Positions 5,139 through 50,213 of a DNA stretch of 50,213 nt are shown piece after piece. The notes under the pieces are model-generated. The model searched no databases. It saw only the letters and a list, made by a program, of their open reading frames with translations, and was not told the DNA's origin. How positions within the stretch are numbered: position 1 is the first letter of the stretch; every line of letters begins with the position of its first letter. Source of the stretch: a virus; the IMG/VR virus record IMGVR_UViG_3300023082_000258, positions 1-50,213 of that record. One strand, given 5' to 3'. The position numbers and the translations under genes were made by a program.

Positions 5139-5935
5139 AGTGCATCCGACGCGCCCATTCCCGATGGTCAACCTGCCGCTGCGACCACTGCATGGCGGTG
5201 ATGCGCAGAATCGGGAAAGCCGCCCGCGCCGGCCTCCTCGACAGGGTTCCAGCTACTGCAGCATGGACGCGGATCGACGTGTGGCTCGAGGCCGGATTCG
5301 AAGCGGCATGGATCGAGACCGCGTGCGGGATCCCACGGGCGTCCATCCAATCCGCGATCATCGAAGCCAGGAACTTGGGGATCCGCCGCAACTTCGGGGC
5401 CCGCTACTCCGCCCAGATCGTGAACGCTGACATCTGGACAGCCACAGCCGGCCGCACATCCGCGATCGGATCACGTCGTCGCCTGCGGGCCCTGCAGGTG
5501 ATGGGCTGGACGAACGAAGCCATCGCCGCTGAGACGGGCATCAGCTTCGTCACCTTGGCCAGCATCCAACGCGGGTCAGCGACGAAGGTTCACGCCCGCC
5601 TGTACCACCCGATCCGTGAGGCGTACGAACGTCTCGCCGACGTCGACGGCGGCTCGAAGTACGCGAAGATGCGCGCCACGAAGCGAGGGTTCCTCCCACC
5701 CGCTGCGTGGGACGACCCCGACACCGATCCCGACACCGACCAGCAGGACGACGTCGTGGACGACGTGGCCATCGAACGCGCGCTCCAGGGCGTCGACCCC
5801 TTGTCCCTCACCGCCGCGGAGCGCAGAGAGGCCGTGAAGCGCCACCTCGCCGCCGGCGGCACTGCCACGAGCTTCCAACGCATCACGGGCATCGTCGCGT
5901 CCCGCTACACCGAACAGGAGTCCATCCCCGCATGA
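5135..5935 (+). CDS. Phage HTH DNA-binding protein with N-terminal zinc-like motif
   Basis: Of 266 residues, the first 20 carry CIRRAHSRWSTCRCDHCM, a likely zinc site. Two helix-turn-helix-like units follow: VWLEAGFEAAWIETACGIPR (about 49-70) and LQVMGWTNEAIAAETGISF (about 120-140). An acidic DPDTD repeat follows at about 192-200, with a helical C-terminus. Actinophages commonly encode such proteins before a replication initiator. A role in transcription or replication control is inferred. The stop overlaps the initiator-like gene by four bases. Confidence 0.65.
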   Translation: MKCIRRAHSRWSTCRCDHCMAVMRRIGKAARAGLLDRVPATAAWTRIDVWLEAGFEAAWIETACGIPRASIQSAIIEARNLGIRRNFGARYSAQIVNADIWTATAGRTSAIGSRRRLRALQVMGWTNEAIAAETGISFVTLASIQRGSATKVHARLYHPIREAYERLADVDGGSKYAKMRATKRGFLPPAAWDDPDTDPDTDQQDDVVDDVAIERALQGVDPLSLTAAERREAVKRHLAAGGTATSFQRITGIVASRYTEQESIPA

Positions 5936-6738
5936 GTATCGAAGCAACCGCGTGGGCCCTGAAGAAGGCCGACGTCCCCGACCCGATCGCGCACCTGGTG
6001 CTGATCGGGCTGGCTGATCACGCCGCCGACGACGGCACCGGTTCGTGGCCGTCGATCGCGACCCTGGCGAAGTACGCACGCTGCTCTGAGCGGTCCGTGC
6101 AGCGCAAGCTGCGGGCGCTCGAAGAGATGGGAACGATCGTCCAGGGCGACCAGCGGATCGTGCAGCATGTTCGCTCTGATCGGAGGCCGATCGTGTGGAA
6201 CCTTCCGATCTACGGGGTGACCGTGAGTCACCCCGTAGAAGTGGCCCACGGGGTGACAGCCCAGGCTCCACGGGGTGACAGCCCTGTCGTCCACGGGGTG
6301 ACAGCCGTGTCACCCGAACCGTCCTTTAACCATCCTGAACCAGCAGCGGCACGCGGCAACGATTCTCGACCAGAACAGATCAACGAGCTGCACGCCGGCT
6401 TCGCCGCCCACGCAGCCCTCGACTCGATCTCGTTCACGATGCGAGCCGTCGACGTGACCACCGTCTGCGCCCTCGTGGACCACCACGGTGTCCAACGACT
6501 CGTTAGAGCAGCCCTGGCCACGAAGACCGGGAACGTCCGCCGGGCGACCGCGTTCATCGAGACCTGGTCAGACCTCAAGGCCGGCTTCCTGCCATCCGAG
6601 ACCGTGACCGCGATCGGGCCCCTGTGCCCGGAGTGCGCCGACACCGTCGCCCGCTGCGACGTCATCGCCCGAGACCAAGACCCCGAGCACCGCTGCCGCG
6701 GCGCCGAAGACCGCTACGACGAGAGGCACACCGCATGA
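5932..6738 (+). CDS. Replication-initiator-like winged-helix protein
   Basis: The first 85 residues are a helix_turn_helix_36-type winged helix: KADVPDPIAHLVLIGLADHA, GSWPSIATLAKYARCSERSV, then QRKLRALEEMGTI. Phage O-like or DnaD-like initiators have this N-terminus. A low-complexity linker (residues about 90-135) repeats HGVTA and is encoded by iteron-like DNA repeats. The C-terminal part is helical and ends in a cysteine motif (CPECADTVARC). As with lambda O, the origin could lie within the gene. It is the largest early gene and precedes a DnaQ-like exonuclease. Confidence 0.65.
   Translation: MSIEATAWALKKADVPDPIAHLVLIGLADHAADDGTGSWPSIATLAKYARCSERSVQRKLRALEEMGTIVQGDQRIVQHVRSDRRPIVWNLPIYGVTVSHPVEVAHGVTAQAPRGDSPVVHGVTAVSPEPSFNHPEPAAARGNDSRPEQINELHAGFAAHAALDSISFTMRAVDVTTVCALVDHHGVQRLVRAALATKTGNVRRATAFIETWSDLKAGFLPSETVTAIGPLCPECADTVARCDVIARDQDPEHRCRGAEDRYDERHTA
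6210..6315. repeat. Iteron-like repeats, candidate replication origin
   Basis: CCACGGGGTGACAGCC occurs exactly three times, at 6246-6261, 6268-6283 and 6291-6306, spaced 22 and 23 bases. Just upstream, CTACGGGGTGAC (6210-6221) faces its perfect inverted copy GTCACCCCGTAG (6227-6238). A further inverted GTCACCC lies at 6309-6315, so the GGGGTGAC core appears six times in about 105 bases. A T/A-richer stretch (CCTTTAACCATCCT) follows at 6322. Position inside an initiator-like gene suggests an origin. Confidence 0.6.
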
Positions 6739-6959
6739 AGCTCACAACCATCTGGACACTGCCAGCCATGACGCTGGCAGAACGCGTCCGCCGCACGCTG
6801 GATCTGTTCGACATGAAGATCGCCTCCGCGCTGCCGAAGCGGGTGAAGTACTGGGCCTTCATCCAGTCCGGCTCGTCGGCTATGGAGCCGCACGAGGTCG
6901 TCGGTAGCCAGGGCTTCATGGATTTGTTGCAGCGGCTCGAAGGAGCGCCGCGCTCGTGA
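6735..6959 (+). CDS. Hypothetical early protein (74 aa)
   Basis: Helical N-terminal half (LAERVRRTLDLFDMKIA) and a C-terminal half with VKYWAFIQSGSSAM and GFMDLLQRLEG. No family is recognised. It is coupled by ATGA to the initiator-like gene and by GTGA to the exonuclease gene, which suggests a replication-module role. Confidence 0.55.
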   Translation: MKLTTIWTLPAMTLAERVRRTLDLFDMKIASALPKRVKYWAFIQSGSSAMEPHEVVGSQGFMDLLQRLEGAPRS

Positions 6960-7480
6960 CCCTTGTCTACCTTGACACCGAGACGACCGGCTTGGACCCG
7001 AACAAGCACGAGGTCTGGCAGATCGCATACGCCATCGACGGCGACGACGTCCGGACGTCACACGTGGCGCACCACGGCCTCACGGCCGACGCGACTGCGC
7101 TCGAAATGAATCACTACTTCGACGAGATGCCCCTGGAGAAGCTCCACGGCGCCAACAGTCAGATGTGGGAGTGGCTGCTGTTCCAAAACCTCCACGACGC
7201 GACGCTCGTCGGAGCGAACCCGTCGTTCGATGCCGCGTTCCTCGCGAACCGCTGGGGTAAGGCGCCCTGGAGGTTCCGACTCCTCGACGTTGAGGCGTAC
7301 GCAATGGGTGCGCTCGGCTTCGACGAACCCCGCGGCTTGGCCACCATCTCGAACACTCTCCGCGATCAGCATGGTTACGAGATTCCATCACCGGACCACA
7401 CCGCGGCTGGTGACGTCGCGGCCCTCCGGGCATGCCACCTCGCGCTTCAGTCCATCTATGTCGACCTGAAGGAGAACTGA
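6956..7480 (+). CDS. DnaQ-like 3'-5' exonuclease (DEDDh)
   Basis: At 174 residues this fits the RNase T/DnaQ fold. The four acidic metal ligands and the histidine are all present: D7 and E9 in YLDTETTGLD (ExoI), D92 in GANPSFDAAFLANRW (ExoII), and H148 and D153 in PDHTAAGDVAAL (ExoIII, DEDDh type). It should hydrolyse DNA or RNA from 3' ends, as a proofreading or nucleotide-recycling enzyme. It has a GTG start within the previous stop. Confidence 0.85.
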   Translation: MTLVYLDTETTGLDPNKHEVWQIAYAIDGDDVRTSHVAHHGLTADATALEMNHYFDEMPLEKLHGANSQMWEWLLFQNLHDATLVGANPSFDAAFLANRWGKAPWRFRLLDVEAYAMGALGFDEPRGLATISNTLRDQHGYEIPSPDHTAAGDVAALRACHLALQSIYVDLKEN

Positions 7481-9924: not shown

Positions 9925-10919
9925 GCGACGAGACCACTACCGCAACCCCGGGCGCCACACAGGCAGACCTCGGCGACGAGCTCACGAAGCTCGTCGGGTG
10001 CTACACCCAGTTCGTCATCGAGGCCACGTACAAGGCCAACGACCGCGAGATGCCTGGTGGTGACGCGATGCAGGCCATGGCGCCGGCTGCGAATTTGCAG
10101 GCGTGGGAGCAGGGGTTCGAAGCTGCGGAGCGCCTAGCTGAGGTGAAGCTCGACCGTGGCCGCGCGGCGGAGGCCGCCGAGCTGCTGGCGTACGTCTTCG
10201 ACCAGTTCGACACCGACACCCACCCTGAGCTGATCCTCACCGATTGGGAAGCGCAGATCCGCCACGAACGCGGAGACGACGTCAGCCTGCGCTCCGACGT
10301 TCTGAAGGCCGCCGCCTACATCCGCCGGTCCATCCCCTGGCTGTACAGCCTCAACGACAAGGGCCGGCCAGTGTTCGTCGAGCACGAGGCGCTGCACGCC
10401 GACCTGAAGAACGTCCGCAAACACCTCGAGTCCATCCTGAAGTCCGGGAACCGGGCCGAGTTCACCCGCGTCCACTGCATCTCCGACGCCTGCGAAGCGG
10501 CCGTCACCGAATCCGAGGACCGCAAGACCACCCCACGGCTCATGAAGATCTGGGCTGCACAAGTGCGCTGGGACCGGTACCGCTGCCCTGTCTGCCGAAC
10601 CGAGTACGACCAGCAGCAGTTCAAGATGGCCGAGTCGCAGAACCTCCACTCAGCGGGCGCCGAACGGTACGTCACACCGTCTGACGCCATGAAGGCCAGT
10701 GGCGTCCCGAAGGACACCCTGTACTCGTGGATGCGTCGCGAGAACGTGAGAATCACGAAGGAGGAGGGCAGCGGCCACACCCTCGTCTGGTGGCCTGACG
10801 TGCGCGACCGTGCGGTCGAACGCACCGCACGGCTCAAGCTCGAAGCCGCACGCCGTGTCGAGCGCGCGGCCGCGAAGGAAGCCGACGCGCACGTCGAGGC
10901 TGAGAGGATGCAGGCATGA
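9921..10919 (+). CDS. Phage DNA-binding protein with zinc finger and HTH (332 aa)
   Basis: The N-terminal 150 residues are helical. Cysteines HCISDACEA (about 185-193) and YRCPVCRTEY (about 220-229) look like a zinc-binding pair. A helix-turn-helix of the MerR/excisionase type follows (VTPSDAMKASGVPKDTLYSW) and the protein ends in a basic coiled coil rich in alanine and arginine. Proteins with this arrangement are common and uncharacterised in actinophages. A regulatory role in the early-to-late switch is possible, since the gene is near the end of the early operon. Confidence 0.6.
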   Translation: MSDETTTATPGATQADLGDELTKLVGCYTQFVIEATYKANDREMPGGDAMQAMAPAANLQAWEQGFEAAERLAEVKLDRGRAAEAAELLAYVFDQFDTDTHPELILTDWEAQIRHERGDDVSLRSDVLKAAAYIRRSIPWLYSLNDKGRPVFVEHEALHADLKNVRKHLESILKSGNRAEFTRVHCISDACEAAVTESEDRKTTPRLMKIWAAQVRWDRYRCPVCRTEYDQQQFKMAESQNLHSAGAERYVTPSDAMKASGVPKDTLYSWMRRENVRITKEEGSGHTLVWWPDVRDRAVERTARLKLEAARRVERAAAKEADAHVEAERMQA

Positions 10920-11332
10920 GCGCGCTGACTGAGTTCCTGCTGGCACGGATCGCCGAGGACGAGGCGGTCGCGCGAGATGCTGGCGGTGACGAGTGGCGCG
11001 AAGCCGACGTCGAGTATGGCCGTGAAGCGTACTCAGGGCTGCAGGTCTATCGGCGGAACGGCCGCCCGATCGCGGAAGCCTACCTGCTCGACGCGACACT
11101 TGGTCGCCACATCGCCCGCCACGACCCCGCCCGAGTCCTCGCCGAGTGTGCGGCGAAGAGGGCTATCGTGGCTGAGCACGTGGCGTACTTCGAGGTGTGC
11201 GCCGTCTGCTACGACCAGGACGCTTCATCTCCTGGTGACTTCGTGATGAAGGCCTATCCCTGTGACACCCTCCGTGCCCTCGCCAGCGTCTACGCCGACC
11301 ATCCGGACTACCGATCGGAGTGGGCGCCGTGA
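10916..11332 (+). CDS. DUF6221-like actinophage protein
   Basis: The pattern FLLARIAEDEAVARDAG at the start, HIARHDPARVLAECAAKRAIV in the middle and YPCDTLRALASVYADHPDYR at the end matches the DUF6221 family, which is widespread in actinobacteria and their phages and has no known function. Length (138 residues) fits. Assignment is from memory of the motif. Confidence 0.75.
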   Translation: MSALTEFLLARIAEDEAVARDAGGDEWREADVEYGREAYSGLQVYRRNGRPIAEAYLLDATLGRHIARHDPARVLAECAAKRAIVAEHVAYFEVCAVCYDQDASSPGDFVMKAYPCDTLRALASVYADHPDYRSEWAP

Positions 11333-11556
11333 GCCACCACCTACGCATCGTCTCCGACCCTGACCTCGGGTCTATCGCGGAGGTCATCGACGACGAAACG
11401 GGACAGGTGCTCGGTTCATGCGCCGATAGCCCGCGCCGAGCGGATGGCCTGATGGTGATTGTGGATGAGACCAGCATCTTCGAGCACGGCTACCTACTCC
11501 CGTGGCACAGCGCCCCGCGGGATGGCGACACGCAGGCTGATCCAGAACTGTCATGA
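11329..11556 (+). CDS. Hypothetical protein, last of the early run (75 aa)
   Basis: A beta-rich small protein (HLRIVSDPDLGSIAEVID, LMVIVDETSIFEHGYL). GTG start lies within the previous stop. It ends at 11556, right at the start of the phased repeat/promoter region, so it marks the end of the early operon. The function is unknown. Confidence 0.55.
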   Translation: MSHHLRIVSDPDLGSIAEVIDDETGQVLGSCADSPRRADGLMVIVDETSIFEHGYLLPWHSAPRDGDTQADPELS

Positions 11557-22560: not shown

Positions 22561-22566
22561 CTCACA

Positions 22567-22620
22567 CCCCTGAGCGGCCATGCGGCCGGTAGCGCGCTAC
22601 CGGGCATGGGCGCTCAGGGG
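22567..22620. promoter_or_regulatory. 54-base near-perfect hairpin between chaperone genes
   Basis: CCCCTGAGCG (22567-22576) pairs with CGCTCAGGGG (22611-22620). One G-G mismatch, a 6-bp stem CCATGC/GCATGG, a two-base bulge and a perfect inner palindrome CCGGTAGCGCGCTACCGG (22586-22603) follow. It begins six bases after the gpG-like stop, has no T-run and ends with AGGGG, which can serve as the Shine-Dalgarno of the next gene. It may control translation or mRNA stability. Confidence 0.65.
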
Positions 22621-22627
22621 TCCGTTC

Positions 22628-23329
22628 GTGCTTCACCACGCCGGCGGCAAGGTGAAGGTGCGGTGGCCATCCGCGGACACCCTGCTGGGCTACAACCCGG
22701 ATGCAAGTCGCGCGGCTCGGGCACAAGCTCTGGGCGGCCGCTCGACCGAAGAGCTGCTCGCGGTGGTCGGTGATCAGGACTTCGCGGTCCTCGACTTGAT
22801 CCTCAAGGATCTCGCCCAGTACTTCGGATGCACCAGAGCGCACCGTCTGCTGTCGCTACTCGACAGGTACGGCGACGTCATCGCACAGGACCTGGCCGCC
22901 CTGTACCAGCTCGACGTACTCGACGTGTTCCGCGGCGGCGTGGTCCCCGACGAGCTCATGCACAAGATCGACGGACTCCCGCGGTACTCGCGACTCTCGG
23001 AAGCCCTCGCGCAGGACGACGAGCTCGCGCGCCACAGCCAACCCGCCGACGACAGTGCCACCGCTGCCCCAGAAGTCCGGTTCACCGAGTGGACCCCAGA
23101 AGCCGAACGGCTCGCAGTCGTCGCCGACCGCCTCGGCGCAATCTTGTCGGCGATCGCCGCGATGGCCGGCACCAAGTACTCAGTGCCTCCCGAGCCGCGC
23201 CCCGTCGGCGCGCTTAGCCGTCTACGCGAATCCGAGGAAGACGACAGCTACCGCGACATCGTGGCCGCCGTCGAAGAAGCACAGGAACGCTGGGCGGCCG
23301 CCCAGACACAGACACCTGAGGAGGGCTGA
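22628..23329 (+). CDS. Second tail-chaperone-position protein
   Basis: The protein lies between the gpG-like gene and the tape measure, where the second chaperone product normally is. It is helical (STEELLAVVGDQDFAVLDLI, LAQYFGCTRAHRLLSLLDRY, VIAQDLAALYQLDVLDVFRG) with an acidic C-terminus. I chose GTG 22628 because AGGGG (22616-22620) lies seven bases upstream. ATG 22580 in the same frame gives 249 residues but falls inside the hairpin arm and lacks a Shine-Dalgarno. It is separately translated rather than frameshift-fused. Confidence 0.65.
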   Translation: MLHHAGGKVKVRWPSADTLLGYNPDASRAARAQALGGRSTEELLAVVGDQDFAVLDLILKDLAQYFGCTRAHRLLSLLDRYGDVIAQDLAALYQLDVLDVFRGGVVPDELMHKIDGLPRYSRLSEALAQDDELARHSQPADDSATAAPEVRFTEWTPEAERLAVVADRLGAILSAIAAMAGTKYSVPPEPRPVGALSRLRESEEDDSYRDIVAAVEEAQERWAAAQTQTPEEG

Positions 23330-26300
23330 TGGCTGTACGCGCAGGGCAGGCGTTCATCGTCATCGGCCCCTCGTTCCGTGGCTTCAAGACGAAGACCGAG
23401 ACCTGGGTCAAGACCAACATGAAGGCCGTCGACATTCAGGTGAACCCTGTGCTGTCGAAGAAGCCGATCGTGACGCGGCCGCAGAAGCCGGTGAAGGTCC
23501 CTGTCGACGTTGACCGGTCTCGGTTCGATCGCTCCATCGCGGCCATCGAGTCCAGGCTCGATCGACTCACCCGTGGTCGGTTCCTGATCAACGTAGGCAT
23601 CGCTCTGTCCCCGATCGCTGCGCCTGCCCTGGCGGCAGCCGTGGGTGGTGGGATCGCGGGTGGTGGGATCGCTGCGGCCGGTCTCGCCGGCATCGTCGGC
23701 ATGGCGACAGTCGGCGCCGCATCCCTGAAGCGCGTCACCGCCGCACAGGAGCAGGTCACCACAGCCACAGCCGCCAGCACGGCGGCCGTGAAAACCCTCC
23801 AGGGCGCCCGGCAGTCTCTCGCATCGGCTGAGCGTTCGGCCGCCGCTACCCGCATAGCTGCCGCACGGTCCGTAGCGAACGCCGAGCGGGGTGTCGCCGA
23901 CGCACAGGCGAAGCTCGCCGACTCCCAGCTGAACGTGCGCAGGGGTCTCCGCGACCTTCACGAAGCTCGCCGGCAGGCTGTCCTCGACCTGCAGGACCTT
24001 CAGGACAAGACCGCGGACAACGCCCTGTCGCAGGAGTCGGCCGAGATCGGTCTGCTCGAGGCGCAGCAGGAGCTCGCGCGCGTCCAGGGAGACGCCAAGG
24101 CCACCGACCTCGACCGGCGGAAGGCTGCACTCGGCCTCGCCGAAGCGCAGGACCGCCTGAACGACGCGAACAAGACGGCCGCGAAGGACGCCGCCGATCT
24201 CGCGAAGGCCCAGAAAGACACCTTCCAGGACAGTAACCCCGACGTCATCGCCGCCCGCAAGGCGCTCGAGGACGCCGAGAAGGACCGCGACGCCGCCCAG
24301 CAAGGTGTCCGCGACGCCCGGCGCCAACTGTCCGAGGCGCGGGCCGACGCGTCCCGCCAGATCGCGGACTCCAACGCTGCTGTGGCAGCTGCCGGTGCCG
24401 AGGTCGCAGCCGCTCAGGCGACCGCCGCCGACGCGCAGGCCGCCCAGGCGAAGGCACTCGCCGCGATGTCACCGGCGCAGAAGGCCGCCGCGGCTGGCAT
24501 GGACCGGCTCAAGTCCACCTGGAGCGCCTTCCAGGACGTCACAGACCCGTTCGTCCTCCCGGCGCTGGTGGCGGGCATGGACGCTCTGGGTAAGGGCCTC
24601 TCTCCGCTCGCTGCGTTCATGGAGCCGGTGTCAGCGGCGGCCGGCCGCATGTTCTCCGCCTTCGGTGACGCGCTCGGCTCCAAGGGCTTTTTGGCCTGGT
24701 CGACGAGCTTCGGCGAGTTCTCTGCCTCGATCGCCGGGGACGCGACACAGGGCATCCTGAACCTTGCCCGCGGCTTCGGGTCGCTCATGACGGCGTTCAT
24801 GCCCCTGTCGAAGGACATGTCCGGCGGGCTGGTCACTCTGACTGCCCGGTTCGCCGAGTGGACTGCGGGTCTTCAGGGGTCGTCGGGGTTCAACGGTTTC
24901 GTCGACTACGTTCGCGAGAACGGTCCCCTGCTGATCTCGACCCTCGGCGAAGTCGGGCTGGCCATCATCGCGATCGGCAAGGCTGCCGCGCCGCTCGGAC
25001 ACCAGCTGCTCGAGATCATCACCAGCGTCTCGCGGTTCATCGTCGTATTCGCCGCCGCACACCCGCAGATCACCGCCGGAGTGGTCGGGTTCGTGGCCCT
25101 CTCGTCTGGTGTTTCTGCCGCGGCTGGCCCACTGTCGAAGATGATCCCCCTGGTCAAGACGGCCGGCGGTGGCGTTCTGGGCCTGGCAAAGGCGACGGGC
25201 ACCGCGTTCACGTTTGGCAAGGACTTCGCCGGTGGCCTGATCAACCAGCGCAACGCCCTCAAGACCGGCGCATCGTGGGCCACAACGTTCGGCTCCGCGA
25301 CGCGTCAGGGCGCCACCAACACAGTCCTCGCCGCACGCGCCACTGGTTCGTTCGTGATCCAGCAGGGCGCCCTCGGCCTGGCTTACGCTCGCAACCTCAT
25401 CGCGAGCGCACTGATCACCGCGGGCATGATCGCCCAGCGTGTCGCCACCGTGGCGGTCACGGCCGCCACGCGAGCTTGGGCGGCCGGTCAGTGGCTTCTC
25501 AACGCCGCCCTGACCGCCAACCCCATCGGACTCGTCATCGTCGGCCTCGTCGCGTTCGGTGCACTCGTGGTCACGCTGTACAAGAAGGTCGGCTGGTTCC
25601 GCGCGGGCGTCGACGCCATGTGGTCCGGACTCCAGACTGGCTTCTTCTGGGTGCGCGACAACTGGAAGCTTTTGGCCGTCCTGCTGACCGGTCCGATCGG
25701 TGGAGCGGTCGTGCTGATCACGAACAACTTCGACAAGATCAAGACCGGTCTGACCAAGGTGAAGGACGCCTTCACCACTGCCAAGGATGGCATCTCATCG
25801 GTCTGGTCGGCCGTGTCTGACGCGGTGACGAACCCCTTGGACACCATCAAGAAGGCCCTCAACGTCTTCTTCAAGGGCATCGACAAGATCGCCGAGTTCT
25901 TCGGTCTGAACTTCGACTTCCGCTTCGAGGTCGGCGACGATGAGAAGAAGCCGAAGAAGGTGCCGTCCGGCGACGATCATCGCAAGCCGAGCGTGAAAGC
26001 CGCCACTGGCGGCGTGCTTCCCGGCTGGTCGCCCGGCCGCGACATCCACACGTTCATGTCGCCAACCGGCGGCAAGCTGGAGCTCTCCGGCGGCGAAGCG
26101 GTCATGCGGCCCGAGTGGACCGCCGCCGTCGGTGGACCCAAGGCCGTCAGCGCCATGAACAAGGCCGCCATCCGCGGAGGTCAGGCGTTCGCCGACGGCG
26201 GCGTGTTCTGGCCGACGAAGAACAAGCACTGGACTACCTATAGCGGACACGACGGCCTCGACTTCAACGGAGCCGGCAACGGACTCGGCGCCCCGTACTT

Positions 26301-27063
26301 CGCGGCCAAGTCCGGCACCATCGCGTACACCGGCACCGCTCGTGGGTACGGCAACGCGGTCTTCCTCGCGACCGACGGCGGCCCGACCCTCACCTACGGT
26401 CACTCGTCTCGCGTGGACGTGCGACAGGGTCAGCGCGTTACCGCCGGCAAACAGATGGGCCTTATCGGCTACAGCGGCAACGTGCGTCCCGCCGGGCCGC
26501 GCGGCTCACACCTGCACTTCGGCCTCGTCGGCGAGGGGCCCGACGAAGGAGCCGCGGCTCTCGCGTTTCTCGGAGGCGCGGCCATGCCGTCCGGTGGCGG
26601 AGGAGGCGGAGGAGGGTTCGATCCCATCGGCGCGGTCAAGAAGGCCGTCCTGGAGGCCAAGGAACTTTCTGAGTCCATCAGCGCGGGCCCATTCGGCAAC
26701 ATGCTGAAGAAGGCCCCCGGCACGGTCGGTGGCCTGGCAGTGGACTGGGCAAAGAAGAAGCTCAACCCACTCGACGACATCAAGGACGGCCTCGACAAGG
26801 TCTTCGACAACGGAGGCATCGCCTCCACGCGCGGGCTTCTGGTCAAGGACACCATCCGTCCAGAGCGTGTCTTGTCGCCGTCTCAGACCGCCGCACTGGA
26901 GGACGGGTTCCGGAACCTCCGTCCCGGCGAGGGTGGCGTGCAGGAGCTCACCGGTCAGGTCGAGATCCTCAACGTCGCGGAGATCGTGTCGGGCGTCGCG
27001 ACGAAGGCTGTCGGGGACGCGAACTTCCAAACCCGCCGAGGACTGAGGACACCGAGACGATGA
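23329..27063 (+). CDS. Tape measure protein with M23 peptidase domain
   Basis: At 1244 residues this is the longest gene. Residues 90-380 form alanine-rich coiled coil, followed by hydrophobic helices (about 520-800) typical of tape measures. Residues about 960-1070 are a lysostaphin-like M23 metallopeptidase: H974 and D978 in SGHDGLDFNG, then H1061 and H1063 in SHLHFGLVGEG, which complete the zinc ligands. A glycine run (PSGGGGGGGGF) follows. It sets tail length and probably locally opens peptidoglycan during DNA entry. It starts with an ATG overlapping the previous stop. Confidence 0.92.
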   Translation: MAVRAGQAFIVIGPSFRGFKTKTETWVKTNMKAVDIQVNPVLSKKPIVTRPQKPVKVPVDVDRSRFDRSIAAIESRLDRLTRGRFLINVGIALSPIAAPALAAAVGGGIAGGGIAAAGLAGIVGMATVGAASLKRVTAAQEQVTTATAASTAAVKTLQGARQSLASAERSAAATRIAAARSVANAERGVADAQAKLADSQLNVRRGLRDLHEARRQAVLDLQDLQDKTADNALSQESAEIGLLEAQQELARVQGDAKATDLDRRKAALGLAEAQDRLNDANKTAAKDAADLAKAQKDTFQDSNPDVIAARKALEDAEKDRDAAQQGVRDARRQLSEARADASRQIADSNAAVAAAGAEVAAAQATAADAQAAQAKALAAMSPAQKAAAAGMDRLKSTWSAFQDVTDPFVLPALVAGMDALGKGLSPLAAFMEPVSAAAGRMFSAFGDALGSKGFLAWSTSFGEFSASIAGDATQGILNLARGFGSLMTAFMPLSKDMSGGLVTLTARFAEWTAGLQGSSGFNGFVDYVRENGPLLISTLGEVGLAIIAIGKAAAPLGHQLLEIITSVSRFIVVFAAAHPQITAGVVGFVALSSGVSAAAGPLSKMIPLVKTAGGGVLGLAKATGTAFTFGKDFAGGLINQRNALKTGASWATTFGSATRQGATNTVLAARATGSFVIQQGALGLAYARNLIASALITAGMIAQRVATVAVTAATRAWAAGQWLLNAALTANPIGLVIVGLVAFGALVVTLYKKVGWFRAGVDAMWSGLQTGFFWVRDNWKLLAVLLTGPIGGAVVLITNNFDKIKTGLTKVKDAFTTAKDGISSVWSAVSDAVTNPLDTIKKALNVFFKGIDKIAEFFGLNFDFRFEVGDDEKKPKKVPSGDDHRKPSVKAATGGVLPGWSPGRDIHTFMSPTGGKLELSGGEAVMRPEWTAAVGGPKAVSAMNKAAIRGGQAFADGGVFWPTKNKHWTTYSGHDGLDFNGAGNGLGAPYFAAKSGTIAYTGTARGYGNAVFLATDGGPTLTYGHSSRVDVRQGQRVTAGKQMGLIGYSGNVRPAGPRGSHLHFGLVGEGPDEGAAALAFLGGAAMPSGGGGGGGGFDPIGAVKKAVLEAKELSESISAGPFGNMLKKAPGTVGGLAVDWAKKKLNPLDDIKDGLDKVFDNGGIASTRGLLVKDTIRPERVLSPSQTAALEDGFRNLRPGEGGVQELTGQVEILNVAEIVSGVATKAVGDANFQTRRGLRTPRR

Positions 27064-34754: not shown

Positions 34755-34804
34755 AGCGTAGCGGCACTGCGGACCATCCACCCTGATCGAGCGGACCATC
34801 CACC
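34755..34804 (-). promoter_or_regulatory. Moron promoter with two direct repeats
   Basis: The -10 TACGCT lies at 34760-34755 on the minus strand, 6 bases before the ATG. GCGGACCATCCACC occurs twice (plus-strand coordinates 34769-34782 and 34791-34804), 22 bases apart, or two helical turns. One copy covers the expected -35. No good -35 hexamer is visible, so the repeats may be activator or repressor sites. Confidence 0.55.
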
Positions 34805-34823
34805 CCATAAGTGCCCCCCGCTC

Positions 34824-34866
34824 TGGTCAATCCCAAGTCGAAGCCCGAATCACTTGGGATTGACCA
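34824..34866. repeat. Perfect 15-bp inverted repeat
   Basis: TGGTCAATCCCAAGT (34824-34838) is exactly complementary to ACTTGGGATTGACCA (34852-34866), with a 13-base spacer. It lies between the moron promoter and the lysis cassette. It is less GC-rich than its surroundings. It could be a bidirectional terminator, an operator or a recombinase site. Confidence 0.7.
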
Positions 34867-34882
34867 AGCACCTTCCAAGTCC

Positions 34883-34910
34883 AGCCCCGTCGAGATCTCG
34901 GCGGGGCTTT
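34883..34910 (+). terminator. Terminator-like hairpin before lysis genes
   Basis: AGCCCCG (34883-34889) pairs with CGGGGCT (34902-34908), enclosing the palindrome CGAGATCTCG and followed by TTTCC. It fits an intrinsic terminator on the plus strand, perhaps separating tail from lysis transcription. Confidence 0.55.
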
Positions 34911-34931
34911 CCTATGCCCAGGAGGCTTCCC

Positions 34932-34952
34932 GTGACCGAACGTTGCCGCTGA
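34932..34952 (+). CDS. Possible six-codon leader peptide
   Basis: A strong Shine-Dalgarno AGGAGG (34920-34925) is placed six bases before GTG 34932, which opens a six-codon frame (V-T-E-R-C-R) ending in TGA at 34950-34952. That stop overlaps the ATG of the membrane gene at 34952, which has no Shine-Dalgarno of its own. This looks like a leader peptide coupling translation of the first lysis gene. Confidence is low because of its size. Confidence 0.35.
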   Translation: MTERCR

Positions 34953-35155
34953 TGCAGATCCCCTCCCGAGTCGTCGTCGCGATCCTCCTGGCCATGGTCT
35001 CCCTCCTGGTCCTGGTCGTCGTCGTCGGCCTCATCCGCGACCAGGTCGACACCAACGGCCTCGCGATCGTCCTCACACCCGTCATCACCGGCATCCTCCT
35101 CGGCTCCGGCATCCGCTTCGGCCGCCCGTCCGAGAAGAAGGACGACGAGGCATGA
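34952..35155 (+). CDS. Holin-like membrane protein (67 aa)
   Basis: Two transmembrane segments (about 7-26 and 36-53) and a basic, charged tail (FGRPSEKKDDEA) are the plan of small phage holins. It is the first gene of the lysis cassette and is coupled to the next gene by ATGA. Start at ATG 34952 overlaps the stop of a short leader frame. Confidence 0.6.
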   Translation: MQIPSRVVVAILLAMVSLLVLVVVVGLIRDQVDTNGLAIVLTPVITGILLGSGIRFGRPSEKKDDEA

Positions 35156-35682
35156 GCACCCTCGCCTGGCTCATCGTCGCGTTCATCACCGGCACCGCCA
35201 CCGGCGTCACCTGGCGCGAGTCCTACGACATCCTCACCGGAAAGCGAGACCCCATGGCCACCATCCGCCGCGCACTCCGCCCGAACGTGCCACTCCTCGC
35301 GGTCATGCTCACCATCTCCATGGTGTTCGTCGCGTCAGTCGGCGTCGGCATCATCGTGAAGGACACCGGCGACCGCCGCGCTGAACGCTGCCAGGTCGAG
35401 TTCAACCAGAAGACCGCCGACGCCCGCGACGCCCGCGTCGGGATCTCCACCACCGACGTCATCCCCGCGCAGACCGCCTACGTCGAGGCAGACCTGCAGT
35501 ACCAGCGCGGACTCCTGGAGACCGTCACCACCGAAGGCAAGACCGTCGACGACATCGCCGCCGTGATCAGCGCCCGGGTGGCCGCGACCCGCTCGTACCT
35601 CGACGCGCTCGAGGCCCAGGCGAAGGTCGCGCAGGACAACCCGTACCCGCCGGCCGACTACTGCACGAACACGGACCGATGA
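35152..35682 (+). CDS. Lysis-region membrane protein (176 aa)
   Basis: Two hydrophobic segments (about 5-20 and 47-70) are followed by a long helical, charged external or cytosolic domain (about 75-165) with one cysteine near each end (ERCQVEF and YCTNTDR). This could be an antiholin or spanin-like/membrane-tethered lysis factor. No family is recognised. Confidence 0.55.
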   Translation: MSTLAWLIVAFITGTATGVTWRESYDILTGKRDPMATIRRALRPNVPLLAVMLTISMVFVASVGVGIIVKDTGDRRAERCQVEFNQKTADARDARVGISTTDVIPAQTAYVEADLQYQRGLLETVTTEGKTVDDIAAVISARVAATRSYLDALEAQAKVAQDNPYPPADYCTNTDR

Positions 35683-36002
35683 GCGTCGAGCTCGCGGAGT
35701 TCTTCCGCTGGGGGTACGCCATCCTCGCGATCATCTGCGCCACCGGGTTCATCGCCACGCTCATCGTGCGGTGGGACGTGCTGCACGCCGGCGAGAAGAT
35801 CCTGCGGTCGGGTCTGATCATCGAGCACCTGGTCATCACCTACGCCGCCTACGTCGCGCTCAAGCCGCCGGCGTACCCGCCGACGATCGTCGGTGCGCTG
35901 CTGACGTGCTCGATGATCATCATCGTCCTCGGCTTCGCCGTGTGGATCGCGGACGCGCTGATCCCAGGCGACGTCGACATGCACCGTCTCAGCGACCGCT
36001 GA
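35679..36002 (+). CDS. Lysis-region membrane protein (107 aa)
   Basis: Three hydrophobic segments (about 10-30, 45-62 and 69-92) predict a multi-pass membrane protein without a clear family. It lies directly upstream of the endolysin and is coupled to the previous gene by four bases, so a holin or antiholin role is likely but not shown. Confidence 0.55.
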   Translation: MSVELAEFFRWGYAILAIICATGFIATLIVRWDVLHAGEKILRSGLIIEHLVITYAAYVALKPPAYPPTIVGALLTCSMIIIVLGFAVWIADALIPGDVDMHRLSDR

Positions 36003-36017
36003 CCCGCCCCACCCTCT

Positions 36018-36038
36018 GACCCTGCCGCCGGCGGGGTC
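36018..36038 (+). terminator. Hairpin before the endolysin gene
   Basis: GACCCTGCCG and CGGCGGGGTC (36018-36038) are nearly complementary, with one T-G wobble and a minimal loop. It lies in the 61-base gap before the endolysin. There is no T-run, so attenuation is possible but weakly supported. Confidence 0.35.
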
Positions 36039-36063
36039 CTCGTCATGCCCCAGGAGGCACACC

Positions 36064-37332
36064 ATGTCCTACATCCACGGCACCGCGCTCGTCACCGCCG
36101 CCCGCAAGATGAAAGGGCAGAAGAAGTACTCCGGCATGTGCCAAGCGTTCAGCATCCTGACCTCGAAGACGGGCTCGAGCACACCCGACTTCGACGGCGA
36201 CGGCGACCACGACGCCGTCGACTGGTGGAAGCACGCCGTCAAGCACGGCAAGGTCGTCCTCGCGAAGGACATCAAGAACCTCGCGGACGTCCCGGCCGGC
36301 ACGCTGGCCTACTGGACGGGTGGATCGCGCGGCTACGGCCACGCCGCCCCGACGACACCGGGCGGCAACGTCGTCTCTACCGATGCGCCGAAGTGGGGCA
36401 CGATCGGCGAAGTCCCCATCAGCTGGATCGCGAAGAACTGGGGCAACGGGCTCAAGTTCGTCGGCTACATCGTGAACGACGGCTACGGCCACCAGATGGT
36501 CGACACCGCGTCGACGCCGAAGCCGACCCCGCCGAAGCCCGCGCCGGTCAAGGTCCCGAAGCCCACGACCCGACCGACCGACGTCGTTTCGCACACCGAG
36601 TGGAACCTCGGCGGCCTCGACGTCGTCGGCCGCGGCGCCGAGACGTTCGCCGCGCGTATCGACAGCATCACCACCGAGATGTCCGAGATCGGTTCCGACG
36701 TCTTCTCGCTCCTCGAGATCCGCACCGAGCACCTCGCGAAGTTGAAGCGGGCGCTCGACAAAATCGGGTACAAGGTCGCTGTCTACGGCAAGGCCCGCGC
36801 CGTCGTCGTCCGCAAGGCGATGAAGGTCGGCCGCACCGCGGTCTACACGCTGCCCGAGAAGGGCCCTGCCAACGACGCCCGCCACGTCGTCTTCGCCGAG
36901 GTCTACGTCGGCGCCAACGCCTGGCTATTCTCGGCCGGACACTTCGAGCACCGCACCGGCGCCGCGTACGACAAGACCCGCGTCACCCAGGCAAAGCAGG
37001 CCGCCGCGAAGGGTGTCCGGCTCGCGAAGAACTGGGACATCGACCCGACCCGCGTCTCGTTCGCCGACGACGAGAACTCGAACCGTCAGGTCCTCGAGCA
37101 GGCCTACGAGCCCGCCGGCTACTTCGACGTCTTCGACGGTGCGTGGCAGGCCGACAACGAGGCCACCGCGACCTTGCCCGGCTGGTCCGGCGCCACCCCC
37201 GACGGCGAGCGGATCGACAAGATCAAGGGTCACCGCAACCGGCCCCGCCGTCGTGCTCACGTCCGCAAGGCCGCAGTCCGGCTGAGCGACCACATCCCCA
37301 CGACAGTCGTCTACGGGACCACCACGAAGTAG
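36064..37332 (+). CDS. Endolysin: cysteine peptidase plus EEP nuclease-like domain
   Basis: Residues 1-145 resemble a CHAP/NlpC-type cell-wall peptidase, with nucleophile candidate C26 in YSGMCQAF and H93 in LAYWTGGSRGYGHAAP. A proline/lysine linker (151-171) follows. Residues 175-420 show all endonuclease/exonuclease/phosphatase (DNase I-like) motifs: N181 in EWNLGG, E218 in FSLLEIR, H293 in FSAGHFEHR, D336 and N338 in FADDEN, and S408-D409-H410 in RLSDHIP. Such a fusion is unusual. The first domain should cut peptidoglycan; the second may cut DNA or another phosphoester. AGGAGG lies upstream (36051-36056). It is followed by a holin gene. Confidence 0.78.
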   Translation: MSYIHGTALVTAARKMKGQKKYSGMCQAFSILTSKTGSSTPDFDGDGDHDAVDWWKHAVKHGKVVLAKDIKNLADVPAGTLAYWTGGSRGYGHAAPTTPGGNVVSTDAPKWGTIGEVPISWIAKNWGNGLKFVGYIVNDGYGHQMVDTASTPKPTPPKPAPVKVPKPTTRPTDVVSHTEWNLGGLDVVGRGAETFAARIDSITTEMSEIGSDVFSLLEIRTEHLAKLKRALDKIGYKVAVYGKARAVVVRKAMKVGRTAVYTLPEKGPANDARHVVFAEVYVGANAWLFSAGHFEHRTGAAYDKTRVTQAKQAAAKGVRLAKNWDIDPTRVSFADDENSNRQVLEQAYEPAGYFDVFDGAWQADNEATATLPGWSGATPDGERIDKIKGHRNRPRRRAHVRKAAVRLSDHIPTTVVYGTTTK

Positions 37333-37340
37333 GAGGCACC

Positions 37341-37709
37341 ATGTCCAAGATCCTCGAGCTCATTCGCTCTGTCATCGGCCGCGAGCCCGCGCTCGTCGTC
37401 TCCGCCGTCGGCGCGCTACTCACGTTCCTCGTCACGTTCGGCCTCCCCGGCCTGACCGCCGATGACGCGACCAACATCCTCGCCGTCGTCTCCGCGATCG
37501 GCACTGCGATCGTCGGCTGGGCCACCGTCAACACCCGCCTGTCCATCGTCGTCGGCATCGGCCGCACCCTGCTGATCCTCGCGACCGGGTACGGCCTGCA
37601 CCTCAGCCAGGAGCAGGTGGGCCTTGCCGTGCTGGTCATCTCCTCGTTCGCGGCGCTGTGGATCCGCGACAAGAACGCGCCGGCCGACACCGCGATCTCG
37701 GTCTCGTGA
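37341..37709 (+). CDS. Holin
   Basis: Four hydrophobic segments (about 15-35, 43-60, 66-84 and 90-107) in 122 residues, with charged ends and position right after the endolysin, match the typical actinophage holin. AGGAGG (37331-37336) sits directly upstream. It would open the membrane at the time of lysis. Confidence 0.7.
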   Translation: MSKILELIRSVIGREPALVVSAVGALLTFLVTFGLPGLTADDATNILAVVSAIGTAIVGWATVNTRLSIVVGIGRTLLILATGYGLHLSQEQVGLAVLVISSFAALWIRDKNAPADTAISVS

Positions 37710-38130: not shown

Positions 38131-38164
38131 AGCGCCCCACCCCTTCACCGGGGTGGGGCGCTTT
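38131..38164 (+). terminator. Strong terminator of the late operon
   Basis: AGCGCCCCACCCC (38131-38143) pairs perfectly with GGGGTGGGGCGCT (38150-38162) around a six-base loop, followed by TTT and CG. This is a 13-bp stem, the clearest intrinsic terminator in the window, and it closes the packaging-to-lysis block. Confidence 0.8.
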
Positions 38165-38179
38165 CGTCGTTCCCTGGGC

Positions 38180-38498: not shown

Positions 38499-38527
38499 TT
38501 GGATTCGTCTGGACCCCGACGTAACAT
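38499..38527 (+). promoter_or_regulatory. Recombinase promoter
   Basis: TTGGAT (38499-38504) and TAACAT (38522-38527) are separated by 17 bases and match sigma-70-type hexamers better than most in this window. The predicted start near 38534 gives a leader of about 80 bases containing a hairpin. Confidence 0.6.
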
Positions 38528-38542
38528 CGTGTCTCAAAGGGC

Positions 38543-38574
38543 GAGCCGCCCGGTGCTGGAACACCGAACGGCTC
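38543..38574 (+). promoter_or_regulatory. Hairpin in the recombinase leader
   Basis: GAGCCG (38543-38548) and CGGTG (38551-38555) pair with CACCG (38562-38566) and CGGCTC (38569-38574), with a symmetrical CC/AA internal loop and a six-base loop. It lies within the 5' leader, about 40 bases before the start codon. It may regulate translation. Confidence 0.5.
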
Positions 38575-38612
38575 AGACGCCCGCCATATCGACTGAACCG
38601 AATGGAGACGCC

Positions 38613-39533
38613 ATGCGTCACGCTACTGCAATGCCCGTGCTCGACCCCAGAGGACCGATCCCTCGCCACGAGCTCGCCGCCATGAACTATCTGGCCGGCT
38701 TCTCAGGGGCCACCCTGGACAACTACCGCTACCTGCTCAAGATCTTCTTCGAGTGGTGCGCTCAGCACGAGCTCGACCCGCTCGACGCCACCCGCGCGCA
38801 CCTCGAGCTGTACATGCGGTACTGCGAGCACGAGCGCAAGAATCACATGTCGACGATCCACGCGAAGGTCGGCGTGCTGATGGGCTACTACGACTTCGCG
38901 AACGAGGACGGGCTGATCGAGAAGAACCCGGCCCGTCGCGTCCGCCGACCCGCGTACTACCGCGACGAGGCGTCGATCATCGGTCTCGACCGCACGGAGA
39001 TCACCGCGATGATCAAGGCCGCTGAGGCCGAGTCCGGCTCCGTCCATGCGCTCATCGTGCTGATGGCGATCCTCGGCCTCCGCCTGTCCGAAGCGACCGG
39101 CGTCCGGATCGAGGACTTCGGCGAGGTCGAACGCTCCCACACCGTGCTCCGCATGACGGGCAAGGGGAACAAGGCCGCGACGATCCCGCTCCCGGCGCCG
39201 GTGCTCCGCGCCCTGATGCGGGCGAAGGGCGACAGGACCCACGGGGTGCTGTGCCTCCGCGAGTCCAACGGCCTGCCGTACACCGGCGCGGCCGTCAGGA
39301 AGGCCGTCCGCCGGCTCGCGAAGCAATGCGGCATCACGAAGCCCGTCCGACCGCACCTGCTCCGCCACGGAATGGTCACATCCGCGCTCGATGCCGGTGT
39401 CCCGCTCCGCGACGTGCAGGTCGCCGCCAGACACTCCGATCCCCGCACGACCATGCGGTACGACCGCGCCCGGCTCAACCTCGACCGCCACGCCTCGTAC
39501 ATGGTCGCGGGGTACCTGATGGGCGGCGCGTAG
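38613..39533 (+). CDS. Tyrosine recombinase 1
   Basis: This 306-residue protein is complete. It has a core-binding N-domain (residues 20-115; TLDNYRYLLKIFFEWCAQHE) and a catalytic domain with R157 in LGLRLSEATG, K184/K187 in GKGNKAA, H248-L-L-R251-H252, H274 in AARHSDPRTT and nucleophile Y283 in MRYDRARLNL. It should cut and rejoin DNA by a 3'-phosphotyrosine link. It lies after the late terminator, not at attP, so it may be the integrase of an ancestral module, a resolvase or an invertase. GGAGAC lies just before the ATG. Confidence 0.88.
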   Translation: MRHATAMPVLDPRGPIPRHELAAMNYLAGFSGATLDNYRYLLKIFFEWCAQHELDPLDATRAHLELYMRYCEHERKNHMSTIHAKVGVLMGYYDFANEDGLIEKNPARRVRRPAYYRDEASIIGLDRTEITAMIKAAEAESGSVHALIVLMAILGLRLSEATGVRIEDFGEVERSHTVLRMTGKGNKAATIPLPAPVLRALMRAKGDRTHGVLCLRESNGLPYTGAAVRKAVRRLAKQCGITKPVRPHLLRHGMVTSALDAGVPLRDVQVAARHSDPRTTMRYDRARLNLDRHASYMVAGYLMGGA

Positions 39534-49057: not shown

Positions 49058-49419
49058 TCGACTCGGAGATCCTCGAGCAGCTGTGGGCCGCGGGCCAGCT
49101 GGTGCCGCACCGCATCACGATGGCGCTCGACATGAACGGCTTGCAGGGGCCAGAGGTCGACCGGCTCTGCGAGGCGGAGGAGCCCGAGGTCGACGAGTGG
49201 GAGGCCGGCCTGCGCTACCCGCGGCTCGTGCAGGTCCGGGCCCTGGCCGATCTGTGCGACGTGCACCCACTGTGGTTCTTCCGCCAGTACGACCAGGACC
49301 GCGGCCGAGAGCCGGCGTTCATGTGCAGCCCGAGGAAGTGTGAGGTCATCCGAGACGACGGAGTTGAGCGTGTGCTGGAGTACCCGATGGATGTTGTCCG
49401 CGCGACGGTGGGCGGTTGA
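49054..49419 (+). CDS. XRE-like HTH protein upstream of integrase
   Basis: Residues 15-75 resemble an XRE helix-turn-helix region: LVPHRITMALDMNGLQGPEV, then LCEAEEPEVDEWEAGLRYPR and LVQVRALADLCDVHPLWFF. It may be a second regulator of the lysogeny module. The rest is a short C-terminal domain (FMCSPRKCEVIRDDGVERVL). It is translated from GTG 49054 within the previous stop and is followed closely by the integrase. Confidence 0.6.
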   Translation: MIDSEILEQLWAAGQLVPHRITMALDMNGLQGPEVDRLCEAEEPEVDEWEAGLRYPRLVQVRALADLCDVHPLWFFRQYDQDRGREPAFMCSPRKCEVIRDDGVERVLEYPMDVVRATVGG

Positions 49420-49421
49420 GG

Positions 49422-50213
49422 ATGGAGACCATGGACGAGCTGAGTGAGGCGCACCTGCAGCACCTGATCGATGAGCGGAAGCCGGACAACACGATCAAGG
49501 CGCGCCGGCGGGTCCTGCGCCTGGTGGGCAACGCTGGCACGGCGCAGCGTGAGGAGATCGAAGCGTGGTGGAAGACCAGGGCTGATCTTGCTGAGGCGAC
49601 GCGTGCTGCGGACCTGTCGCAGCTGCGCGGGTTCTACAAATGGTGCATGCGGTGGGAGCACCGGTTCGACGACCCCACAATCAGGATCGACGCACCGAAC
49701 GTCCCGAACAACCTGCCGCGGCCGATCAACCGGCACGACTTCGACATCCTCCTGAACGGTCTCGACCCGGAGATGCGTCGCGCGGCATGCCTGGGCGCGT
49801 ACACGGGGATGCGAGTGTCTGAGGCTGCGGCGGTCGACTGGTCGAACGTCGACGACGAGCTTCACCGCATCACTGTGCTCGGCAAGGGCCAGAAGTCGAG
49901 GCTCGTCGCGTACTCCCCGGTCCTGCTCGACGCGTTGCTGCCGAACACCGGCGGCAACGTCGTCACCGCCGGCGGGACGCCGTACACGGCGGCGCAGCTG
50001 GAGCGGAAGGTCAACCGCGCCATCGAGCGGCTCGGCGTCGACGCCACCTTCCACCAGCTGCGCCACCGATACGGCACCCTCGCGTACCAGGCCACCGGGG
50101 ACCTCATCGCCGTAGGCCGGCAGATGGGCCACACGTCCCCGGTCACCACGGCGATCTACGCGGCCGCTTCGGACGCTGTCGCGGACAAGATCGCGCAGGC
50201 GGTCGTTCGGTAG
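49422..50213 (+). CDS. int: Tyrosine recombinase 2, candidate phage integrase
   Basis: This 263-residue recombinase has a core-binding N-domain (1-95) and a full catalytic set: R131 in YTGMRVSEAA, K155/K158 in LGKGQKSR, H211-Q-L-R214-H215, H237 in MGHTSPVTTA and nucleophile Y246. It lacks a separate arm-binding domain and is short, like XerC/D-type enzymes. Its stop codon is at the window end, 57 bases from the tRNA-Gly attP core if the ends join, so it is the likely integrase. TTG 49416 (four-base overlap) and ATG 49431 (GGAG upstream) are alternative starts. Confidence 0.87.
   Translation: METMDELSEAHLQHLIDERKPDNTIKARRRVLRLVGNAGTAQREEIEAWWKTRADLAEATRAADLSQLRGFYKWCMRWEHRFDDPTIRIDAPNVPNNLPRPINRHDFDILLNGLDPEMRRAACLGAYTGMRVSEAAAVDWSNVDDELHRITVLGKGQKSRLVAYSPVLLDALLPNTGGNVVTAGGTPYTAAQLERKVNRAIERLGVDATFHQLRHRYGTLAYQATGDLIAVGRQMGHTSPVTTAIYAAASDAVADKIAQAVVR

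Follow-up and report, generated by a model that had tools for sequence, protein, structure and literature searches.

The window analyzed here is an IMG/VR virus contig of 50 kb (50,213 nucleotides in full) from a soil-type actinophage, in which the terminase, tape measure and tail genes lie 5' of a lysis cassette and a tyrosine integrase lies 3' of it. Within this cassette we identified a gene whose product appears to join an NlpC/P60-CHAP-type cysteine peptidase, through a proline-rich linker, to a candidate EEP (DNase I-like) domain (Table 1). The first-pass annotation had taken positions 36064-37332 as one gene, and the open reading frame is indeed intact. GC3 is 0.90-0.97 in each full 60-codon bin, from the first domain through the linker to the second, so we can read the ORF as a single coding frame; the uniform codon-position GC rules out two genes joined by a frameshift or an assembly artefact.

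Table 1. Features of the lysis cassette and of the lysin-EEP fusion gene in the window.
Feature	Position	Strand	Evidence
Three small ORFs with predicted membrane segments, 5' of the fusion gene	34811-35155, 35152-35682, 35679-36002	+	hydropathy
Intergenic block sharing 93% identity with the one preceding the L103 lysin-EEP gene; possible exchange junction	35999..36074	+	sequence comparison
Lysin-EEP fusion gene, 422 aa	36064..37332	+	single ORF, uniform codon-position GC, AGGAGG at 36052-36057
NlpC/P60-CHAP-type cysteine peptidase domain, residues 1-148	36064..36507	+	homology, invariant triad, AF2, Foldseek
C26 (GMCQ), presumed catalytic cysteine	36139..36141	+	invariant in 22-sequence alignment
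H93 (GYGH), presumed catalytic histidine	36340..36342	+	invariant in 22-sequence alignment
D107 (STD), presumed third catalytic-site member	36382..36384	+	invariant in 22-sequence alignment
Proline-rich linker, residues 149-170	36508..36573	+	sequence
C-terminal EEP (DNase I-like) domain, predicted, residues 171-422, 252 aa	36574..37329	+	sub-cut-off PF03372, nine-sequence alignment and null test, Foldseek PDB/BFVD
N181, EEP motif WN	36604..36606	+	motif position, nine-sequence alignment
E218, metal ligand position	36715..36717	+	invariant in nine-sequence alignment
H293 (SAGHF), first catalytic histidine position	36940..36942	+	H in every alignment row but L058
D336-E337-N338 (D-x-N motif)	37069..37077	+	D336, N338 invariant in nine-sequence alignment
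D385 (ERID), further EEP acid position	37216..37218	+	invariant in nine-sequence alignment
S408-D409-H410, terminal EEP motif	37285..37293	+	D409, H410 invariant in nine-sequence alignment
Holin gene, 122 aa, directly 3' of the fusion gene	37341..37709	+	PHROG phrog_9752 holin, E=3.4e-15; two hydrophobic segments

The lysis cassette and the N-terminal peptidase

A strong ribosome-binding site (AGGAGG) precedes the fusion gene, and that of its 3' neighbor, also AGGAGG, overlaps the fusion gene's stop codon. The three small membrane ORFs upstream (34811..36002) are probably the rest of the lysis cassette; PHROGs gave no lysis match for any of them, and the middle one (35152-35682) had only a weak match to a "secreted protein". 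No signal peptide or membrane segment was found in the fusion protein itself, nor did we see a hydrophobic membrane-docking segment.

The earlier reading of the protein as a lysis endolysin with a cysteine peptidase is borne out by the holin gene directly 3', by the predicted fold, by the presumed catalytic triad and by the lysin A homologues, and the protein is almost certainly the endolysin of the cassette. A defence-system reading was rejected, as PADLOC gave no match.

The peptidase assignment of the N-terminal domain draws on homology and modelling. In a whole-protein scan, no model of Pfam, NCBIfam or PHROG passed its cut-off, and none of the three revealed a recognizable cell-wall-binding domain in the fusion protein. 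The NlpC/P60-CHAP Pfam models gave no match for the fusion protein, and the homologue L025 matched CHAP below cut-off (E=0.0024). Homologues were collected with a DNA pattern for GG[ST]xGYGHxA, which led to 56 viral loci, 29 of them carrying a homologue of the N-terminal domain, and C26, H93 and D107 are invariant across 22 aligned lysin-family sequences. AlphaFold2 modelled residues 1-150 at a pLDDT of about 75-95, and the best PDB matches of this model in Foldseek were the NlpC/P60 autolysin domains Acd33800 and Acd24020, together with MepS, CwlO and PlyPy. Fold and triad thus support the cysteine peptidase proposed at first, which we predict to be an NlpC/P60-CHAP enzyme with a papain-like fold and a Cys-His plus polar residue active site. 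Using an N-domain homologue as query, we reached 64 phage records, mostly of Microbacterium and Arthrobacter phages, in many of which the gene is annotated as lysin A or endolysin.

The tape measure protein of the window (23329-27063) contains a metallo-endopeptidase/endolysin-like segment at residues about 970-1070 (PHROGs), which is probably an entry-stage wall peptidase, separate from the lysis enzyme. L004 has the lysin N-domain at 27-482 on the minus strand, as the C-terminal portion of a tape-measure-like protein whose open frame runs to 2209 aa. The window has two integrase-like ORFs (38499-39533 and 49368-50210), as does the related phage L103 (IMGVR_UViG_3300023082_000259, reached through a tail protein of the window), whose two are likewise related, and the Arthrobacter phages BillyTP, Isolde and Auxilium have two annotated integrases near their lysis genes. 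Last, a near-perfect inverted repeat of 56 bases lies at 22566-22621 of the window, with arms about 90% identical in a self-BLAST.

Identification of the C-terminal domain

By automatic sequence matching alone, the EEP assignment would be thin. Direct queries with the fusion protein returned no match in Pfam, NCBIfam, 50,697 phage records or IMG/VR peptide scans, and none in PHROGs with either the whole protein or the C-terminal domain; sequence matches in the PDB were antibody chains and were dismissed as chance, and those in actinobacterial genomes involved either the N-domain only or chance similarity in the C-domain (G296, a glycosyltransferase-like ORF). PF03372 reaches 14.5 bits on the C-domain against a cut-off of 24.5 bits (E=6.5e-4 within one genome, 0.031 in a full Pfam scan), and PF08924 scores slightly above it on the window protein, over 48 residues. 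BLASTP found no match between the EEP domains of the fusion protein and of L103, and a profile-profile comparison of the C-domain with other EEPs was not significant (P=0.15, an unrelated segment giving 0.43).

The catalytic residues tell more. The first-pass annotation had named a proline linker and, as every EEP signature, N181, E218, H293, D336/N338 and SDH 408-410; all of these residues are where it placed them, but the list was incomplete, since D385 had been overlooked. In an unguided MAFFT alignment of the C-domain with eight phage EEP-like proteins, exactly seven columns are invariant (E218, D336, N338, I384, D385, D409 and H410), that is, only catalytic residues and one neighbor, I384. 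Alignments of two to five EEPs, or of cut fragments, misplaced the motifs, and because only the nine-sequence alignment registered them we ran a null test. The real domain aligned in 7 of 7 catalytic columns, while the best of 300 shuffled versions reached 6 (three of them did) and the best of 33 segments from other window proteins reached 5. An ordered-motif pattern with loose spacings matched none of 20,000 shuffles of the domain and just 2 of 1,127 ORFs of at least 200 aa, the fusion gene and a Pfam-supported EEP; this pattern was drawn up after the sequence had been seen, which flatters its result, and the unguided MAFFT test is the fairer one.

Structure prediction leans the same way, at low confidence. 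A first AlphaFold2 model, built on an alignment without EEP rows, left the C-domain unfolded, and a second one with EEP rows in its alignment gave the EEP domain a pLDDT of 46. For this low-confidence model the best 50 PDB matches in Foldseek were all EEP enzymes, with E values down to 1e-7, among them TDP2, neutral sphingomyelinase, nocturnin and AP endonuclease; its BFVD matches were mostly annotated EEP proteins, one of them from Streptomyces phage Yosif. Neither a model devoid of the EEP motifs nor an inactive version of the fold was what emerged, at the low confidence of this model. One could still argue that the domain is no EEP at all and that its motifs are a chance pattern, in line with the sub-threshold Pfam score, the insignificant profile-profile score and the low model confidence. 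Such a coincidence seems very unlikely given that the domain matched all seven catalytic columns when aligned without guidance, and given the EEP-only set of best 50 PDB matches and the better-scoring EEP that L103 carries at the same place. The complete catalytic set, the nine-sequence alignment and the Foldseek matches therefore uphold the C-terminal EEP domain originally proposed, and we consider an EEP fold, a four-layered alpha-beta architecture, very likely.

Whether the fold is used for catalysis is a separate question. With a pI of 9.4 the domain is basic, and a stretch of charge +10 lies between D385 and the SDH motif (residues 386-408). It also sits where a wall-binding domain would be, so it might be a mere polyanion-binding anchor that attaches the lysin to teichoic acid or other wall polymers rich in phosphate, for which catalysis would be irrelevant. 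This reading seems improbable, as all catalytic positions, metal ligands included, have been kept in a domain whose remainder has diverged past recognition, the opposite of what it predicts. We can assume instead that the EEP domain is probably catalytically active.

EEP domains linked to lysins and as free genes

A search for other lysin-EEP fusions, suggested in the first-pass annotation, uncovered a second fusion with a different peptidase, in L103, and two lysin/EEP gene pairs. The L103 gene (17045-18295, 416 residues) codes for an M15-like peptidase, named from the motifs GGTHSTGGAFDI and GMAHVHG, then a proline linker and an EEP domain (residues 182-389) that PF03372 matches over its whole length, below cut-off (E=0.013); a holin-like ORF comes next. 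In L058, a separate EEP gene lies directly behind a lysin of the N-domain type, its GTGA start overlapping the lysin stop, and its product begins with a proline linker; this EEP is above the Pfam cut-off (25.7 bits in a whole-protein scan). L037 has adjacent genes for a lysin and an EEP. This pair (5389-7074) is located among head genes, 5' of a capsid-like ORF, an odd site for lysis genes. The L103 fusion and the L058 and L037 gene pairs indicate that the linkage of EEP and lysin is recurrent. As no EEP was found in L105 and L106, which are M15 relatives of the L103 N-domain, nor in the CHAP-like relatives, the EEP domain is joined to two unrelated peptidases.

EEP-like genes are also found on their own in actinophages. 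L101 has a tandem pair (9989-10750 and 10762-11532), and free EEP-like proteins occur in L038, L040 and L063, as well as in Streptomyces phage Yosif (L133, 1675-2373), where gp5 is a free EEP annotated as hypothetical, near an HNH gene and upstream of the terminase gene. Several of these free relatives are basic, and the free EEP-like proteins that were tested had no PHROG match. The EEP domain therefore also circulates alone in actinophages, and together with the separate EEP genes behind the lysins of L058 and L037 this could favor an accidental or moron-type fusion, in which a cytoplasmic EEP (for host DNA breakdown, nucleotide or signal cleavage, or phage exclusion) is simply read through from the lysin gene. 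We find this very improbable, as the fusion recurs in L103 with a different peptidase and a proline linker, and the separate gene of L058 starts inside the lysin stop codon and has a proline linker of its own.

The DNA around the lysin genes may explain how they vary. In the 76 bases that lead up to the lysin gene, the window and L103 are 93% identical; the figure is 92% for a 116-base block where the cassette begins and 91% for the DNA of the integrases, while the lysins themselves cannot be aligned. Short non-coding blocks of the window (34795-34909, 35999-36074 and 38131-38171), 92-100% identical to L103, flank the otherwise unalignable lysis genes. Near-identical flanks around unalignable lysins suggest that lysin genes or modules have been exchanged by recombination between conserved intergenic blocks, with an EEP tail on both sides. 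We would give even odds to an actinophage endolysin class in which the wall-binding module has been replaced by an active EEP phosphodiesterase, kept while the peptidoglycan cutter is swapped, so that lysis acts on two substrates, peptidoglycan and either DNA or an envelope phosphodiester.

The usual description of an endolysin combines peptidoglycan-cutting with wall-binding domains, and a cell-wall-binding domain is common, but not universal, in the endolysins of Gram-positive phages. Among the 50,697 phage records there was no lysin-EEP fusion, and a text search of open-licence endolysin literature (PMC9371310, PMC5968864, PMC11674121, PMC9671378 and PMC11705968) turned up no endolysin with a nuclease, DNase or phosphatase domain, the single match being a DNase reagent. 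The lysin-EEP protein is, in outline, a new and recurrent endolysin variant of actinophages, for which an earlier report may exist outside the open-licence literature.

Substrate, lysis model and comparison with known enzymes

The best explanation as a whole, which we favor tentatively and at somewhat less than even odds, is a two-enzyme endolysin whose EEP domain acts at or after lysis, with DNA as the favored substrate. The fusion protein would accumulate in the cytoplasm up to the point at which the holin opens the membrane, and the NlpC/P60-CHAP domain would then cut peptidoglycan cross-links or stem peptides, as its family suggests. The EEP domain, which stands in for the usual wall-binding domain and is most likely an active, metal-dependent phosphodiesterase, would work at or just after lysis, cutting the host DNA that spills from the burst cell, so that virions would be freed from the DNA gel and packaged phage DNA would be spared. 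More speculatively, something such as low calcium, as with DNase I, may keep the domain inactive before release.

DNA is our first choice because the domain and several of its free relatives are basic, nuclease activity is common among EEPs and one free relative is encoded near DNA-packaging genes; as the main EEP substrate it remains a tentative choice, with a little under an even chance. Against it, a cytoplasmic DNase endangers unpackaged phage DNA before lysis, which is why an activation step such as calcium would be needed, and the basic charge fits teichoic acid as well.

The main rival substrate is an envelope phosphodiester, since the EEP domain stands exactly where the wall-targeting domain usually sits. 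The EEP would then be an active phosphodiesterase that attacks wall teichoic acid, linkage units or phospholipids after the holin step. It would add a third step to lysis, with a role like that of LysB or of the lipase/esterase genes that lie close to the lysis cassette in some actinophages. Neutral sphingomyelinase, a member of the EEP superfamily, was among the Foldseek matches, and an envelope enzyme would do no damage in the cytoplasm ahead of lysis. In Arthrobacter phages whose integrases are related, lipase or esterase genes lie near lysin A, and actinophage lysis is known to involve LysB, which acts on envelope lipids (PMC9671378). This account seems rather unlikely to us all the same, as the lysin has no visible hydrophobic membrane-docking segment and, in other actinophages, free EEP proteins show no link to lysis genes; we also know of no EEP enzyme that acts on wall teichoic acid.

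If the EEP domain is active on either kind of substrate, these actinobacteria are lysed with the help of a second hydrolase built into the endolysin, and the fusion would be a natural antibacterial protein with two activities. The long-standing question of virion escape from released host DNA would become testable, or a new phosphodiester target in the wall or membrane would appear.

Compared with known systems, the closest parallels of the peptidase half are the lysin A proteins of Microbacterium and Arthrobacter phages (such as Gina gp44 and Eileen gp25), which have a homologous N-terminal peptidase and the same genome position, after the tail genes and near membrane proteins. Unlike the fusion protein, most of those inspected are 247-310 aa long with short, unrelated C-termini, and a PF03372 search of nine lysin A phage records found no EEP anywhere in them. 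Several lysin A homologues also differ in having Asp at the position of the catalytic His93 (AGDVVIS in place of the GYGH His in L087, L088, L089, L090, L093 and L095, all from Microbacterium phages); their active site may be different, or the assignment may need checking. The NlpC/P60 and CHAP hydrolases (Acd33800 and Acd24020 of C. difficile, MepS, CwlO and PlyPy) have the predicted fold and the Cys-His site in common with the N-domain, at 10-19% identity, and the structures listed contain no EEP domain.

The C-domain, in turn, shares the ordered set N, E, H, D-x-N, D and S-D-H with the EEP superfamily (PF03372) and differs from it in its sub-cut-off Pfam score, its lack of cysteines and its attachment to an endolysin; DNase I proper is a Ca2+/Mg2+-dependent endonuclease and has, in its secreted form, a structural disulfide, whereas residues 171-422 contain no cysteine. 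The L103 lysin differs from the fusion protein in its M15-like peptidase, which replaces the NlpC/P60-CHAP one, and in an EEP that BLASTP cannot align. Both have the same order of peptidase, proline linker and EEP, followed by a holin-like gene at the same place, and the two phages share near-identical intergenic DNA and a near-identical integrase.
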